From the IMG/VR virus record IMGVR_UViG_3300009184_000153, positions 1 to 28,745 of that record: a stretch of 28,745 nucleotides of DNA; one strand, 5' to 3'. The stretch comes from a virus. The position numbers and the translations under genes are program-made. The first letter of the stretch is position 1. Each line of letters opens with the position of its first letter. Shown here in pieces: positions 3,406 to 28,745 of the stretch. A model generated the notes under the pieces. The model saw only the letters and a list, made by a program, of their open reading frames with translations. It made no database searches and had not been told where the DNA came from.

Positions 3406-4152
3406 ATGGATAAATTTATAGCGTTAAGTGGATTACCTAGATCAGGATCAACTTTACTATCAGCTATACTTTCACAAAATCCTAATATTCATGCAGAAGG
3501 CAATAGTGCAGTATGTCAATTAATGTGGGATATGCAACAATCATGTTTAGGCAATTCAAATGAGCAATTAAAAGCAACTTATAGAGAACAAACTGCTTTT
3601 GATTTAATATCATCAATACCTAAAACATATTATAAAGATACTAATGCAAAAGTAATTATAGATAAGTGTAGGTCTTGGACACTACCTGATAATATGCAAA
3701 TGCTTTATAGTTATTTTGAACACAAACCAAAAGTGATTGTATTAGAAAGACCTATTATTGAAATAGTAAAATCTTTTGTAGCATTAAGAATAACTAACAA
3801 TTGGGAAGGAAATCCTGAAGATGGATTGTTAGATACATGGTCAGAACCTATTATGCGTTCTTATGAAGGTGTAAAATGGGCAAAAGCCAATAATAATGGT
3901 GAGTTTTTATTTGTTCAATATGATGATTTGGTAAATAACACTCAAGATACAATAGATACAATATATGAGTTTTGTGAGTTAGAGTGTTTTGAACATGATT
4001 TTAACAACATTACAAACAAGCATCCTGAAGATGACACAGTTTATAATATGATTGGTCAGCATGATGTAAGACCTACCATAAATAAAAAAGACTTGGATGT
4101 AGTTCTTACAGATGCTACAATAAAAAAATGTAAGGCAATAGAGAATAAATGA
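3406..4152 (+). CDS. PAPS-dependent sulfotransferase
   Basis: This 248-residue protein has the two PAPS-binding signatures of cytosolic-type sulfotransferases. The 5'-phosphosulfate loop is GLPRSGSTLL at residues 9-18. The 3'-phosphate site is R115 with S123 in 'LERPIIEIVKSF'; the 8-residue spacing equals that of known enzymes. Later features 'QYDDLV' (171-176) and 'HDVRP' (219-223) also fit the family. It would transfer sulfate from PAPS to an acceptor that cannot be told from sequence (glycan, lipid, metabolite or protein Tyr). It starts five bases after the fibre gene with no clear Shine-Dalgarno. Its stop overlaps the next start (ATGA), and an APS kinase-like gene two genes on could supply PAPS. 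Confidence 0.85.
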   Translation: MDKFIALSGLPRSGSTLLSAILSQNPNIHAEGNSAVCQLMWDMQQSCLGNSNEQLKATYREQTAFDLISSIPKTYYKDTNAKVIIDKCRSWTLPDNMQMLYSYFEHKPKVIVLERPIIEIVKSFVALRITNNWEGNPEDGLLDTWSEPIMRSYEGVKWAKANNNGEFLFVQYDDLVNNTQDTIDTIYEFCELECFEHDFNNITNKHPEDDTVYNMIGQHDVRPTINKKDLDVVLTDATIKKCKAIENK

Positions 4153-23019: not shown

Positions 23020-23529
23020 TTAAACAGGAAAGTCATCTTCCATTTCATTAATTGCATCAATGCCTGTTGATTTAGCAAAGACATAATCTTCGAATTGTTT
23101 AGCAATAGCTAATACTTCTTCTACTGATTTACCTGGACCTAGTAACTCTACAGCACTAGATAAAGATGATTGACGAACGATTAGCACTTGACGTGCAGCA
23201 CGTTCTTCTTTAGTTTCATAGTTGCTACCAGTTACACGACCACCAGTTTGAGGTGTTGTTTTAGTTTCAGTTGCCACAGTTTTATCTCCTTCAAGACCAA
23301 TCCACTGCCAATAACCAGCAGCATCTTTTTCAGTTCGTAGATTAATTTGATCACCTTTAGTTAAATCTTTAATGTGATTAAACACACCAGGATTACTAAA
23401 GGACATTAACTTTTTATTCTTTACTTGACCTTGATCATCTTTGTAAGTTACTTCAATTGATTGATAAGATCTGCCATTCTTTGCGGCATGAGTATTTGGT
23501 GCACCAACATCTATAATATTAATTAACAT
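23020..23529 (-). CDS. Single-stranded DNA-binding protein-like
   Basis: The 169-residue protein starts after GGAGATAGTAA, where the Shine-Dalgarno lies inside the end of the polymerase gene. Residues about 1-80 look like an OB-fold: 'INIIDVGAPNTHAAKNGRSY', 'IEVTYKDDQGQVKNKKLMSF', 'WQWIGLEG'. The C-terminal tail is acidic with an aromatic near the end ('NEMEDDFPV'), like the partner-binding tails of SSB and T7 gp2.5. It should coat single-stranded DNA and recruit polymerase and helicase. Position between polymerase and nucleases matches T7 gp2.5. Confidence 0.8.
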   Translation of the reverse strand: MLINIIDVGAPNTHAAKNGRSYQSIEVTYKDDQGQVKNKKLMSFSNPGVFNHIKDLTKGDQINLRTEKDAAGYWQWIGLEGDKTVATETKTTPQTGGRVTGSNYETKEERAARQVLIVRQSSLSSAVELLGPGKSVEEVLAIAKQFEDYVFAKSTGIDAINEMEDDFPV

Positions 23530-24235
23530 TTACTATCTCCATATTGCCCCAGTTAGGTCCTACTTGACACTCGACCCTCATGGGAAGATTAAAATCTACT
23601 CCAAACAATCTTTTAAAGTTTGCTGGAATATCCGTAAAACACTTATCAACAATCTTTACCATACTAGTATTATCGCATACTTCTTCATCAAAGTCAACAA
23701 TAATTGAATCATGTACAGTATTGATTAGTTTAACATTTTTAATACCCTTAAGTCTGTTACTCAAAGATACTCTTGCAATTGCCATTAGGTCTGCACCTAA
23801 TCCTTGCACAGGGTAATTTAATATCTTTGTTCTAGGCCATTTAGCTTGTCCTCCTCTAACATCAGGTTCATAGTAATAGATCCGTCCTGTTGGCATTGTG
23901 AGTTTTCTATCTCTTTTAGCGTCATTGACAATGTCAACATGCCACTCTCCGAGTCGTACATATTTTGCATAGAATTGATCAATAATACCTTGCCAAAACT
24001 TCTCTCCACCAATCCCTTTAAAGTCTGGATCTCTTGCATAACTCCAGGCTGACCCCCCATATATAAGTCTGAAGACAAAAGTCTTTGCGACCAATCTACT
24101 TGGTAATCCAAATCGTTCTTGGTTATCGCTATGTTGATCAACATTATTTAATATCTCCTTAATTGCTATTTGATCTTGACTTAAGTATGCAGCACAAACC
24201 CATTCCAAAGCTTTTGCATCAGCTTGTAACAGCAT
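23519..24235 (-). CDS. Family A DNA polymerase, C-terminal (catalytic) part
   Basis: The start chosen is ATG 24235, preceded by AGGAG with a 5-base gap, inside the end of the N-terminal gene; an upstream TTG/ATG in the same frame is less well placed. The 238-residue product has motif A 'LLQADAKALEWVC', motif B 'RLVAKTFVFRLIYGG' (Lys and, four residues on, Phe as at E. coli Phe762) and motif C 'INTVHDSIIVDFD'. It therefore holds the polymerase active site but no exonuclease. Together with the upstream fragment it makes a complete T7/Pol I-type enzyme of about 630 residues. The two frames differ by +1, so a frameshift product is also conceivable. Confidence 0.88.
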   Translation of the reverse strand: MLLQADAKALEWVCAAYLSQDQIAIKEILNNVDQHSDNQERFGLPSRLVAKTFVFRLIYGGSAWSYARDPDFKGIGGEKFWQGIIDQFYAKYVRLGEWHVDIVNDAKRDRKLTMPTGRIYYYEPDVRGGQAKWPRTKILNYPVQGLGADLMAIARVSLSNRLKGIKNVKLINTVHDSIIVDFDEEVCDNTSMVKIVDKCFTDIPANFKRLFGVDFNLPMRVECQVGPNWGNMEIVNVN

Positions 24236-25388
24236 ACCTACTCCTAAATAATTGTTTAATTTCTCCATCAAAGTTCTGCAAGTTAGGTTTACTAGATGAC
24301 AGTCTACCTGTTCTTGCTACACATTGATTAAGTTGACCATATAGTTTATCTACAGGCCAGTTCATAGATGTTCTAAGTTCAACCAATCCTCTATAATAAG
24401 TTGTTAATCGTTTCTCTAGAGTTGCTCGGTCTAGTATTAACTTTACTAGTTCTTTAGCTTCTGCAGATCCACGTAAACTTTTAAGAGTTGATTCATCAGT
24501 TGAGAACAATCCTTCTTTATCTAACTCAGATCCTTTTAATGGAGTAATACGTCTATCAAAGTTTATTAAATGTTCTACCCATTTTTCTTTTGCCTGTCCT
24601 TTGCGATCTCCCGTTTTAAACAGGCCAATAACTTCTCTACGTTTTACTTTTATAATACCTCCGTAAAGTAAACAAGAGAGCTGCTCATTACTGGAAGGAT
24701 TAAACTCAGGAAGATTATGATAGGAAACCAAAGCATTATCAAGATATTTAATTTGTTGTTCCAATTCTTTAGCAAGAATATTAGCTTTTGTTTCATCAAA
24801 TAAAAGTCCATTGTATTCCATTTCTTCTAAGATTAGTAAGTCTTGGTTATGTAAACTGATTAACCTTTGCATAGGTTTTGTGCATAACGCAAATTCTTCT
24901 ATTTGTTTATCAAATACTTTATGCGTAAGATGCAAATCACCAATTAAATATTCTTCTAGAATTTCTTTAGGGATATTAGGAGTGTCTATCTTGTTGCCCC
25001 AATACTCTGTAGCAACAACATCAAGCTTGCTACCCAGATCATAGTACTCAGAGACACCATTAAGACTTGGATAGGAATCTTGTTGTCCACGCAATATAAA
25101 ATGTACCAACTGACAATCCCAAACACGCTTACCCACAAAGTTAATTCCATATTTGCGAAGCCAATGCAAATCAAACTTAATGTTAAAGCCAACCAGTATC
25201 TCAGCTTGATCAATTTCTTTTTGGATCTCCTCTAGTTTATGTCGATAAGGTTCATCACCATACTCAATAGCATAGCATTGAGTTTTGTCAGCATTGGATA
25301 ACCCAACGTAACAAAGTTTATTAGACTCGTCAAATGGGTTACCCTTGTTACTGATTGTTGTTTCTACGTCTAAGATTAAGCTCCGCAT
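24219..25388 (-). CDS. Family A DNA polymerase, N-terminal part with 3'-5' exonuclease
   Basis: The start chosen is ATG 25388, just after GGAGG; a TTG at 25400 is in frame but overlaps the Shine-Dalgarno. Proofreading motifs are visible: 'LILDVETT' (Exo I, D and E), 'VGFNIKFDLHWLRK' (Exo II) and 'EEYLIGDLHLTHKVFD' (Exo III). The thumb and early palm follow: 'TGRLSSSKPNLQNFDGEIKQ'. The frame ends in 'RSRYAVTS' at TGA 24219-24221, exactly before motif A. It overlaps the C-terminal gene by 17 bases. About 389 residues, and not catalytic for synthesis by itself. Confidence 0.9.
   Translation of the reverse strand: MRSLILDVETTISNKGNPFDESNKLCYVGLSNADKTQCYAIEYGDEPYRHKLEEIQKEIDQAEILVGFNIKFDLHWLRKYGINFVGKRVWDCQLVHFILRGQQDSYPSLNGVSEYYDLGSKLDVVATEYWGNKIDTPNIPKEILEEYLIGDLHLTHKVFDKQIEEFALCTKPMQRLISLHNQDLLILEEMEYNGLLFDETKANILAKELEQQIKYLDNALVSYHNLPEFNPSSNEQLSCLLYGGIIKVKRREVIGLFKTGDRKGQAKEKWVEHLINFDRRITPLKGSELDKEGLFSTDESTLKSLRGSAEAKELVKLILDRATLEKRLTTYYRGLVELRTSMNWPVDKLYGQLNQCVARTGRLSSSKPNLQNFDGEIKQLFRSRYAVTS
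24236..24245 (-). promoter_or_regulatory. Ribosome-binding site that sets the start of the polymerase C-terminal fragment
   Basis: AGGAG (24241-24245 on the minus strand) followed by TAGGT and ATG, all inside the last codons of the N-terminal fragment. It supports separate, coupled translation of the two halves over a frameshift. Confidence 0.65.
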
Positions 25389-25534
25389 TCGCCTCCACAA
25401 CCACTTAATTTTTCAATTGTTTCTTCAATAGTATCACTAGGATTACCTAATGTCAATACATCTTCTACTTCGAATGGTGATAATTGTGGGTTTACATTTA
25501 ATACATCTGCTGCTGTTGCATTAATAACTAACAT
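25376..25534 (-). CDS. Hypothetical 52-residue protein with Cys-rich tail
   Basis: The frame starts at ATG 25534 after AAAAGGAGAAAGA and ends at 25376, overlapping the polymerase start by 13 bases. The body is acidic and helical ('FEVEDVLTLGNPSDTIEETI'), and it ends in 'EKLSGCGGECGA', a Gly-rich C-x3-C. This could bind a metal or form a redox pair, but no family is recognised. Its place between helicase and polymerase suggests a replication-linked function. Confidence 0.7.
   Translation of the reverse strand: MLVINATAADVLNVNPQLSPFEVEDVLTLGNPSDTIEETIEKLSGCGGECGA
25428..25456 (-). promoter_or_regulatory. Candidate sigma70 promoter upstream of DNA polymerase
   Basis: On the minus strand TTGACA (25451-25456), a 17-base spacer, then TGA-TACTAT (extended -10 at 25428-25436). 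The predicted start is about 33 bases before the polymerase ATG. It lies within the 52-residue gene, so it may be a coincidence of AT-rich coding sequence. Confidence 0.35.
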
Positions 25535-25545
25535 TCTTTCTCCTT

Positions 25546-26787
25546 TTATAAGTCTTCATAACGAGCAATTTCAGGTTTGATTAGAACCTGTGTTGAACCA
25601 TGCCTAAGATCAGGCATAGTATCTTCATCACCTATAAGTTTATTCTTACAGATGTTGAAGTATCTAGTGCGGGATGTGTTATCTTGTTCTTTACCAATCC
25701 CTAGAATCCAATCAGCTTCACCTTGTTTAGCTGTCTTAGATCCATCTACCATATCCATTGTTAGAAAAAGTTTCCCTTCCGCTTCGCCACTTGCTTGTGA
25801 CACCGCGATGACGGGAGCGTACGTTTTAGATATTTCACGAGCCCATTGATATATTTGTTTAAGTTCAAGGTCATTACGATCTCCTTTGAATCCACGAATT
25901 TTATCTATCTGGTCGAAGATAATTAACGCAGGGTTATATTGTTTAAGTACAGATTCAATTCTATTTTTACTACTTGAATCCTCGAAGTCTAGAATCTTAA
26001 TTCTATTTCCTGTTAACTCTGAATAGTCTTGTTTGTTTTTTGTTTTGTTTCTAAATAACTCCTGCGTCGTAAGACCAAGGGAAGCTTGATAAACCCTAAT
26101 ACCAACTTTATTTCCTTGTTCTTCGTTGTTAAACCACAATACATCTCCATCAGTTTGGCTGACCATATGAGTAATTTCAGACGCAAGGAATGTAGTCTTA
26201 CCAGTCTCAGGCCGAGCAAAGATAAACCCAAAGTCACCTTTACGCAAGCTACCAAGAGCTTTGTTAAGCCATCTATTACGCCACCGTAAACCTGGTGTGG
26301 CAACCTGGCTAGTGTACAATGTATCCAAGTCCATATCAACTGGAGTAATTTCATCAGCTTCTACCTCCTGGTGTTCAAAGTTATTAAATAATTCTAGCAG
26401 TTCAGCTGTTGTTTTTTTACCTGATTCTACATCTAATGCCATCAATGCTACTTGTCCTGCTAGAGAACGTCTTCGATGTTCTTCTAACAGTCCAATGATT
26501 AATTCAGGATTAGAAACATCTTGATTGTAGACATCTTCTAACAGTGCTATTAATTCTTTTCTTTCATTATCTTTTAATAAATAATTACTATTATAAAATA
26601 AATCTAATTCATTAATATTAATTATATTATTATTATTATATTTAATATAATATAAATCTATAATATTAAATAATTTATATAAATCATTATAATTAATCTT
26701 AATATAATTTATGTTAACATACTTGTAATATTTTGTAAAGAGATTCCTGTCTGTACAAAATAACTTAGCTATTTGTTTCTCAACCAT
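25546..26787 (-). CDS. DnaB-type replicative helicase (T7 gp4 helicase half)
   Basis: This 413-residue protein starts 19 bases inside the primase gene. It has a Walker A loop 'ARPETGKTTF' (191-200), Walker B 'ALIIFDQIDKI' (287-297) and 'PVIAVSQASG' (325-334), the sensor region of RecA-like hexameric helicases. The N-terminal 160 residues form the linker that in T7 gp4 joins helicase to primase and stacks subunits. Residues about 25-75 are extraordinarily rich in Asn, Ile and Tyr because the DNA there is 95 percent AT. It unwinds the fork ahead of the split polymerase and pairs with a separate primase. Confidence 0.9.
   Translation of the reverse strand: MVEKQIAKLFCTDRNLFTKYYKYVNINYIKINYNDLYKLFNIIDLYYIKYNNNNIININELDLFYNSNYLLKDNERKELIALLEDVYNQDVSNPELIIGLLEEHRRRSLAGQVALMALDVESGKKTTAELLELFNNFEHQEVEADEITPVDMDLDTLYTSQVATPGLRWRNRWLNKALGSLRKGDFGFIFARPETGKTTFLASEITHMVSQTDGDVLWFNNEEQGNKVGIRVYQASLGLTTQELFRNKTKNKQDYSELTGNRIKILDFEDSSSKNRIESVLKQYNPALIIFDQIDKIRGFKGDRNDLELKQIYQWAREISKTYAPVIAVSQASGEAEGKLFLTMDMVDGSKTAKQGEADWILGIGKEQDNTSRTRYFNICKNKLIGDEDTMPDLRHGSTQVLIKPEIARYEDL
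26581..26700. other. Extreme AT-rich tract (6 C, 0 G in 120 bases on the plus strand)
   Basis: Counted directly: 6 C and no G on the plus strand in 120 bases, 5 percent GC. It sits inside the N-terminal coding region of the helicase. It could serve as an easily melted element, such as a replication origin, or simply reflect drift in a weakly constrained linker. Confidence 0.6.
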
Positions 26788-27458
26788 TCGTTGATTTCTC
26801 CTGTTGAATATTCTTTAGGATCTTTGGGTGTAATTATTACATCCGAATCAATACCCTTTTGTTTTAAATTTCTAGCCTGTTTAACAGCTTCAATTGCTTT
26901 ATCCCTATCTAACCATATAAAAACTTTATTAAAGCGTTTAAGGATAGTTTCTGTAAGTTCTAGGGGTATTATAGAACCCAACAAGGGTATTACACATACA
27001 TTTTTATTTGATTTAGCAATTTTAATAGCAGAAATTACATCTTCTACACATACAAGTATATCACCTAAGCCATAGAATATCAAGGGTTTTTTACCTTTAG
27101 ATATATATTTAGGGCCATAGCCACTAAAGTTTCTACCTTGATGGTATTGAGGTGTGTTAACTAACACCAACATTTCTTTTCTAGATTCCCAACCAATGTG
27201 ACTTAACTTTACATCGTCTTGAGTAATACCATATTGCAGTAGCCATTGCATTGCTTTTAATGGTATGTTATAATCTAATACTAACTCATCAGATTGCATC
27301 GCATCCTCACGATGCTCTGACAATCTGCTTCGTATACTATTTAGATCATTCTTTTGTTTTTTATATCCACAACCAAAGCAATAGAATCCATCAGTATATT
27401 CTGCTAGATTATCACGGCTACCACATTTAGGGCAGTTAGTATGTTGGATAAAAGGCAT
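26769..27458 (-). CDS. DNA primase (T7 gp4 primase half)
   Basis: The 229-residue protein has an N-terminal zinc ribbon with C9, C12, C27 and C30 ('NCPKCGS', 'YCFGCGYKK'). A TOPRIM domain follows: 'ILVCVEDVISAIKIAKSN' with its catalytic Glu and 'VFIWLDRDKAIEAVKQA' with the DxD. It synthesises RNA primers on the lagging strand. In T7 primase and helicase are one chain; here they are separate genes overlapping by 19 bases. It is the first gene of the leftward replication cluster after the pqqA interruption. Confidence 0.9.
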   Translation of the reverse strand: MPFIQHTNCPKCGSRDNLAEYTDGFYCFGCGYKKQKNDLNSIRSRLSEHREDAMQSDELVLDYNIPLKAMQWLLQYGITQDDVKLSHIGWESRKEMLVLVNTPQYHQGRNFSGYGPKYISKGKKPLIFYGLGDILVCVEDVISAIKIAKSNKNVCVIPLLGSIIPLELTETILKRFNKVFIWLDRDKAIEAVKQARNLKQKGIDSDVIITPKDPKEYSTGEINEWLRNK

Positions 27459-27515
27459 TACAGATTTTCCTTAGGTAAGGTTAGGTGTTACACGCATGAT
27501 TGTTTTCATTCATTA

Positions 27516-27524
27516 TGTTATAAT
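27516..27524 (+). promoter_or_regulatory. Extended -10 promoter of pqqA
   Basis: TGTTATAAT: a perfect TATAAT (27519-27524) with the TGn extension. A good -35 is lacking, which extended -10 promoters tolerate. The predicted transcript start, near 27531, is the first base of a hairpin. It points rightward, opposite to the flanking genes. Confidence 0.6.
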
Positions 27525-27529
27525 AGTTG

Positions 27530-27549
27530 TATAGAATGAAAATTCTATA
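27530..27549 (+). promoter_or_regulatory. 5' hairpin of the pqqA transcript
   Basis: ATAGAAT (27531-27537), loop GAAA, ATTCTAT (27542-27548), extended by one T-A pair. A stem with a GAAA tetraloop at the very 5' end of a short mRNA typically protects it from decay; that role is inferred. The ribosome site follows 12 bases later. Confidence 0.5.
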
Positions 27550-27573
27550 TTAACTTTTATAAAGGAAAATATT

Positions 27574-27645
27574 ATGTGGACAACTCCAGCAGCTACTGAA
27601 ATGCGTTTTGGCTTTGAAGTAACAATGTATGTAATGAATAAATAA
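27574..27645 (+). CDS. pqqA: PqqA-like precursor peptide of pyrroloquinoline quinone
   Basis: The frame encodes 23 residues, starting at ATG 27574 after AAAGGA (27561-27566) and ending at TAA 27643-27645. It begins with Met-Trp-Thr, has 'MRFGFEVTMYVMNK' at the end and carries E15-x3-Y19, the Glu and Tyr that PqqE crosslinks as the first step of PQQ formation. Length, Trp2 and the GFEVTMY core agree with bacterial PqqA peptides of 22-24 residues. It is the only plus-strand gene in the leftward block, with its own promoter and leader hairpin. PqqB, C, D and E are not in the window, so it depends on host enzymes. PQQ is the cofactor of methanol dehydrogenases, suggesting a methylotrophic host. 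Confidence 0.88.
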   Translation: MWTTPAATEMRFGFEVTMYVMNK

Positions 27646-27686
27646 TGATTATTGTAACAGATTGTTATTAAATTACTCCATAGATA

Positions 27687-27711
27687 GCAGACGCCCTAAC
27701 AAGGGCTCTGC
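27687..27711. other. Stem-loop between pqqA and the convergent gene
   Basis: GCAGA-C-GCCCT, loop AACA, AGGGC-TCTGC: ten base pairs with one bulged C. It starts 41 bases after the pqqA stop and ends 12 bases before the end of the next leftward gene. No T tract follows on either strand, so it is a poor classical terminator; it may define or stabilise RNA 3' ends. Confidence 0.55.
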
Positions 27712-27723
27712 AATCATATGTCG

Positions 27724-27897
27724 TTAAAGGCCATTATAAGCTTCAGTTAATTTTTTAGAACTACTTTTATTTAATTTTAATTCTGAAGTTTTATTAGCAA
27801 TATAGTCTATGATAGCATCAGCTAATTCATATCCATCATCATACTCTTTGTCAATAACATTTTGTAGTTCAGTTAAAACTTTTAAGGCTTCATCCAT
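27724..27897 (-). CDS. Hypothetical 57-residue protein
   Basis: The frame starts at ATG 27897 after AAAAGGAAAACAATA and stops at 27724. The protein is helical and acidic in its first half ('LKVLTELQNVIDKEYDDGYE', 'LADAIIDYIANK'), then Lys/Ser-rich. It overlaps the upstream gene by 8 bases. No family is recognised. It is the last gene before the pqqA insertion site. Confidence 0.65.
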   Translation of the reverse strand: MDEALKVLTELQNVIDKEYDDGYELADAIIDYIANKTSELKLNKSSSKKLTEAYNGL

Positions 27898-28381: not shown

Positions 28382-28745
28382 TTAATTACTCCTATAATAA
28401 TTGTATATTGCTTTTTGATATTTGTCAAGTGTTGTTCCTTCTAATCCTGGTGCAGTATTAACTTCGAACACGAAGAATTTGTTATCGATTAGTCTGTGCC
28501 CGATGTCAACGGCACCAAAATCAAGGCCCAATAATTTAACGGCTTGGATTGATGATAGTAGTAGCTCTTCGGACGGAGCTATTTCTGCCCTTGCATATAC
28601 CCATCCATTACTGTAGTTTCTAATGCCTGATCCCCCAAGGGATCCATTACGCTTACGCTTCATTTGAACATCAATAACTTTGTCTTTAAATACATGTACA
28701 CGATACTCATGTTTATGTTTAGTATGCAATGTATATAGTGGTGCA
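28382..28745 (-). CDS. ATP-grasp ligase-like protein, C-terminal part (5' end outside window)
   Basis: The frame is open to the right edge of the window, so the apparent TTG start at 28729 is not the true one. The residues before it ('APLYT') continue the family pattern. Visible are 'HEYRVHVFKDKVIDVQMKRK', 'DFGAVDIGHR' and 'FFVFEVNTAPGLEGTTLDKY'. The last two contain the acidic and Asn residues that bind Mg-ATP in ATP-grasp enzymes of the RimK/D-Ala-D-Ala ligase type. It would form a carboxylate-amine bond on an unknown protein or small molecule. Similar genes occur in many marine and freshwater podoviruses. Confidence 0.82.
   Translation of the reverse strand, partial: APLYTLHTKHKHEYRVHVFKDKVIDVQMKRKRNGSLGGSGIRNYSNGWVYARAEIAPSEELLLSSIQAVKLLGLDFGAVDIGHRLIDNKFFVFEVNTAPGLEGTTLDKYQKAIYNYYRSN
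28400..28428 (-). promoter_or_regulatory. Sigma70-like promoter, distal of a tandem pair
   Basis: On the minus strand TTGACA (28423-28428), exactly 17 bases, TACAAT (28400-28405). The predicted start near 28393 leaves a leader of about 12 bases that begins with the AGGAG of the 49-residue gene. It lies inside the end of the ATP-grasp gene. Confidence 0.55.

Follow-up and report, generated by a model that had tools for sequence, protein, structure and literature searches.

Our analysis indicated that a viral genome fragment carries a pqqA gene that is probably functional, with a promoter of host type, and that would supply extra substrate to the host PqqBCDE enzymes as a gene-dosage auxiliary gene. 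The window, meaning the whole stretch of DNA analyzed, comprises a 28,745-base IMG/VR record, in which the ORF at 27574-27645 (plus strand) encodes the peptide MWTTPAATEMRFGFEVTMYVMNK, with E15 and Y19 present and three residues between them. The preliminary description had called this peptide PqqA-like, with that pair and an FGFEVTMY core, and the profile check it had asked for agreed: the peptide matched Pfam PF08042 (E value, 3e-10; 40.3 bits against a cut-off of 21.1) and the NCBIfam equivalog TIGR02107 (38.8 bits against a cut-off of 20). No PHROG matched it. Residue for residue, the peptide is the commonest PqqA of the Methylophilaceae, being identical at 80 of the 84 distinct host loci, a set picked by similarity to the query. 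The gene occupies a gap of ~265 nt (27459-27723) with leftward genes on both sides. As claimed earlier, it is the sole rightward gene in a leftward block running from ~17084 to the window end at 28745, since every other rightward ORF of at least 40 aa in this interval overlaps leftward genes. The features of the region are as follows.

26769-27458, minus strand: DNA primase gene, divergent neighbor (PHROG 47; 42% identical to the MEP401/402 primase)
27459-27476, plus strand: palindromic upstream element TACAGATTTTCCTTAGGT, a putative operator of the pqqA type (host-derived matrix, 13.4 bits; phage-derived matrix, 14.6 bits)
27516-27524, plus strand: extended -10 TGTTATAAT, read from the sequence, with no recognizable -35 and 42 nt from the palindromic element
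27529-27550, plus strand: 5' hairpin with a 9-bp stem and GAAA loop at the predicted mRNA start (-7.5 kcal/mol; z, -3.0)
27562-27566, plus strand: ribosome-binding site AAGGA, read from the sequence
27574-27645, plus strand: pqqA, 23 aa, PQQ precursor peptide (Pfam and NCBIfam models above curated cut-offs)
27683-27715, plus strand: downstream stem-loop with no T-run (fold z about -4 for both strands)
27724-27897, minus strand: 57-aa ORF, convergent neighbor, absent in a related contig (L289)

The extended -10, the GAAA-loop hairpin, the ribosome site, and the downstream stem-loop were all found where the preliminary description had placed them, and its proposal of a stand-alone expression unit was borne out from the sequence. 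It had missed the palindromic element at 27459-27476, with which the unit extends from 27459 to about 27715. A canonical sigma-70 scan gave no -35 match in the unit, an intrinsic-terminator scan of the unit returned nothing, and an Rfam search of its leader and tail yielded only chance matches, none over the gathering score. Lacking a T-run, the downstream stem-loop is not a canonical intrinsic terminator, and its possible roles are protection of the 3' end or weak termination. The ribosome-binding site was kept in 164 of 164 viral pqqA copies scored, compared with 11% of random ATGs. Leaders of phage and host pqqA alike were enriched about twofold in 5' hairpins relative to shuffled sequence; hairpins starting at most 12 nt from the predicted transcript start occurred in 73-76% of phage leaders (37-40% in shuffled sequence) and in 61% of host leaders (30% in shuffled sequence).

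A palindrome resembling CTMATGA-N3-TCATKAG was located upstream of both phage and host pqqA genes and was recovered independently from each set. Separate EM motif searches of host (67) and phage (126) upstream regions, counted after similar sequences had been removed, returned the same AT-rich palindrome (TCATGAWWWTCATTAG in hosts, TTTAATGATTTTCCTTAT in phages) in 84% of host and 86% of phage upstream sequences, with log-likelihoods of 396 and 676, respectively, against 65-71 for shuffled sets. About 0.3-3% of the upstream regions of other ORFs on the same contigs reached the threshold (8 bits and above). At 29 of 55 host sites, against an expectation of 0.7, the distance from the end of the element to the -10 was exactly 42 nt, and phage spacings clustered at two distances, near 19-20 nt and 41-42 nt, roughly two helical turns apart. 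This two-peak spacing would fit an activator site that can occupy either of two positions along the same promoter face. The window element, which adjoins the start codon of the divergent primase gene and overlaps its leader and ribosome site, ends exactly 42 nt before the -10 (27519); this is the modal host spacing and the layout of a Methylophilaceae pqqA promoter. When ~0.8 Mb of host sequence was scanned, 76 strong element sites were found at pqqA and 32 elsewhere, many of the latter being the same palindrome on the opposite strand, and with a corrected operator pattern in 7 genomes, three of the four sites with the right spacing were at pqqA. At two independent sites on host contigs (L238:4040 and L282:11007; strand as scanned), the element stands close upstream of an ORF judged by eye to encode a metallo-beta-lactamase-like protein of the quinoprotein type, a hint of a wider PQQ regulon. 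The promoter element shared by hosts and phages points to a regulator that is so far undescribed.

The palindromic element and the 5' hairpin recur almost as often as the gene, as would be expected if the cassette acted as DNA or RNA instead of through its peptide, with the many phage operators titrating the host regulator of the pqq/methanol regulon or a short structured RNA exerting regulation. We consider this unlikely because the ribosome site was never lost in the scored copies and because the coding sequence is itself under selection. In 155 distinct viral coding sequences, W2, P5, E9, and R11-Y19 were invariant, a core that the IMG/VR search patterns fix in part. The conservation of the E-x3-Y pair anticipated for related phages thus held in 155 of 155 sequences under this constraint, as well as in the isolates, which were found without patterns. 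The preliminary description had named a missing profile match and the loss of this pair as signs against it; the match and the pair are both present. Because the patterns fix part of the core, pN/pS was remeasured outside it, giving 0.24 at positions 2-10 and 20-23 in the pattern-found loci; in the isolates and the window, for which 22 codons were compared, it was 0.19. With pN/pS about 0.2, purifying selection acts on the viral PqqA peptide, and synonymous divergence among viral pqqA genes is high.

The breadth of the gene among phages was traced by tblastn of the window peptide against 50,697 phage records, which gave 10 true phage matches: P19250A, MEP301, Venkman, MEP401, MEP402, four Melnitz strains, and one environmental phage. 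The nine isolates are classified as Methylophilales (8) or Methylophilaceae (1), and the orphan pqqA peptides of the methylophage isolates are 72-100% identical. MEP431-434, HIM624-A, and Venkman EXVC038S gave no tblastn match, possibly as they lie outside the searched collection. The two remaining matches are named Acinetobacter phage MD-2021a (L007, CAKLQF020000010.1; and CAKLQH020000055.1); the one inspected, L007, was rejected as a phage, since it carries ppk and fur in addition to pqqABCDE and resembles a piece of host chromosome. In no methylophage record examined is the gene annotated as pqqA: five of the nine isolate genomes have no CDS there, and the four Melnitz records carry a hypothetical protein, whose ORF lies over pqqA on the wrong strand in the one record inspected. 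In Melnitz (L005:4998-5066), pqqA (MKWTKPVAQEMRFGFEVTMYIMTR) has an AAGGAGG ribosome site and is situated just upstream of tRNA-Leu, under a wrong-strand hypothetical ORF. In IMG/VR, at least 589 stretches encode relatives of the peptide, and pqqB, C, D, or E was found near pqqA in none of 219 viral loci, compared with 16-17 of 81 host loci. Two further patterns retrieved orphan pqqA genes of other types (e.g., MKWETPTYVDLRFGFEVTMYIYNR and MWKKPEFVDLRLGLEVTLYISNR) in L554, L555, L560, L567, L568, L583, and others. Some of these contigs are large (143, 215, 372 kb with a terminase match), and PqqE over the cut-off was found in 0 of 15 such viral records tested. These contigs suggest that the strategy reaches beyond methylophages.

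Hosts with up to 12 scattered pqqA copies, many encoding identical peptides, offer ample material for a neutral passenger, that is, an amplified host gene often picked up and retained by chance. Its variable presence in phages fits such a history, pqqA being common and not universal (14 of 27) among near-full-length records with related terminases or primases. This origin is nevertheless quite improbable, as a pN/pS near 0.2 combined with high synonymous divergence indicates long-term retention, and the gene recurs at different sites in unrelated phages. Comparison of the window with MEP301, with Venkman, and with a 10-kb stretch of Melnitz turned up no shared proteins, and a single one was shared with P19250A. 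The carrier phages are largely unrelated, and the pqqA insertion sites differ between them.

PqqA is the substrate from which PQQ is made, and it is consumed one for one, with PqqB-E acting as catalysts. The likely hosts have 1-12 pqqA genes per genome and typically one pqqE over the cut-off. The preliminary claim that the host has pqqBCDE was supported with regard to pqqE, as 11 of the 12 genomes of likely hosts had a PqqE over the cut-off, the host of the window phage itself being inferred; 3-12 pqqA genes with a single pqqBCDE set have been published for hosts (PMC4109929). On a functional phage-borne pqqA, host RNA polymerase would transcribe the gene from the layout of palindromic element, 42-nt spacing, extended -10, and 5' hairpin, and the regulator that the host uses for its own pqqA genes would probably control the phage copy as well. 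Host PqqE and PqqD would cross-link the phage peptide at E15-Y19, and the remaining host enzymes would turn the cross-linked peptide into PQQ. Since one PqqA is used per PQQ and the enzymes turn over, pqqA alone could raise PQQ supply at minimal genome cost. The extra PQQ, to the presumed benefit of the phage, would sustain PQQ-dependent methanol dehydrogenase, and hence methanol oxidation, during infection, a link drawn from host physiology; no dehydrogenase was seen in the window, an incomplete 28.7-kb record. As cited in PMC9851590, added PqqA was turned into PQQ by cell-free extract. Counting against our explanation, overexpression of pqqABCDE in Methylovorus, also as cited there, lifted PQQ only modestly. 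The peptide might alternatively slow host PQQ synthesis or compete with it as a decoy for PqqD/PqqE, redirecting metabolism. We hold this to be a faint prospect: inhibitors do occur in phages and nothing direct speaks for one here, whereas the phage peptide is the same as the host substrate, so its conversion is to be expected. The addition of substrate under host-type control is the most economical account.

The closest annotated relatives of the window are a Manatee Spring environmental phage (MW202796) and the OM43 phages MEP401 and MEP402, and the window phage most likely infects methanol-eating bacteria. The window encodes a primase, a DnaB-type helicase, a family A DNA polymerase, head-closure proteins, and a B12-dependent ribonucleotide reductase. 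The polymerase region (23519-25400) consists of two overlapping leftward ORFs (24219-25400 and 23519-24271), which may reflect a split gene or a frameshift, and MEP401/402 likewise annotate two DNA polymerase ORFs. A sulfotransferase (Pfam) is encoded at 3406-4152, and a gene at 28382-28744, cut by the window end, matches PHROG 2599 (ribosomal protein S6 glutaminyl transferase; classed there under auxiliary/host takeover). The check for pqqA at the same place in related phages, which the preliminary description had proposed, found it there in two independent contigs (L288 and L289), the second lacking the 57-aa neighbor and keeping the pqqA unit and downstream hairpin. In others the place differs: pqqA is ~600 bases upstream of the primase with one gene between in L291 and L292, ~7 kb from the primase in L297, and elsewhere in the record in L293, where another gene occupies the site. 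The location thus varies, and the unit seems to be mobile. That the window is host DNA mis-binned as virus, as in the Acinetobacter "phage" record with pqqABCDE, has practically no probability, given the primase, helicase, polymerase, and head-closure genes on the same contig, the matching position in the two independent contigs, and, for the group, pqqA in cultured isolates, which refutes it. Chromosomal genes are absent from the contig, which further counts against host contamination, and this reading was rejected. The gene accordingly appears as a host-derived gene on a bona fide phage, the definition of an auxiliary metabolic gene, as judged from the phage genes, the isolates, and the host-identical peptide.

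Collectively, the recurrence of the gene suggests that phages repeatedly target the supply of PQQ precursor, topping up the raw material of methanol oxidation. A broader reading, for which we find the case about evenly balanced, is that orphan pqqA represents a widespread phage strategy, also beyond methylophages, of carrying a consumed substrate and not enzymes, placed in methylophages under an undescribed host PQQ/methanol regulon through a palindromic operator at helix-phased positions. Methanol oxidation by abundant aquatic methylotrophs thereby gains a control point that can be tested, the supply of PQQ precursor. Because standard annotation misses a gene as short as pqqA, the influence of viruses on one-carbon cycling has been under-read. 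The pqqA promoters of Methylovorus were reportedly addressed by Ge et al. in 2015. Neither the papers describing MEP401/402, MEP301, and Melnitz nor the isolation paper in ISME J mention pqqA, and the Melnitz paper names PQQ solely as a medium supplement. Virus-encoded pqqA figures in a 2026 list among phosphorus-cycle genes (PMC13188868). The preliminary description had left open whether such a gene was already described; one Lake Baikal virus has been, and the breadth of orphan phage pqqA and the shared promoter appear to be undescribed so far, as no description was found in the searchable open-access literature.

That virus, VP_266, known from a Lake Baikal metagenome and described in 2020 with PqqA and methanol dehydrogenase (PMC7678222), resembles the window in that its virus-encoded PqqA was proposed as an auxiliary gene for methanol oxidation. 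It differs in being T4-like, in also encoding methanol dehydrogenase, and in having been read from a metagenome only, and its study (PMC7678222) included neither promoter analysis nor isolates or breadth. MEP401/MEP402, MEP301, Venkman, P19250A, and Melnitz share the orphan pqqA with the window. The scattered pqqA genes of the Methylophilaceae (PF08042, TIGR02107) have the identical peptide, the same order of element, spacing, -10, and hairpin, and no pqqBCDE, whereas the window copy is on a phage genome; in many phage copies, unlike the window copy, the distance between element and -10 is shorter than in these hosts by about two helical turns. Cyanophage psbA is an auxiliary metabolic gene and, like pqqA in the window, is of host origin and presumed to sustain the energy metabolism of the host. 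In contrast to psbA, the window pqqA encodes a consumed peptide substrate and not an enzyme or protein subunit, and it has kept regulation of the host type.
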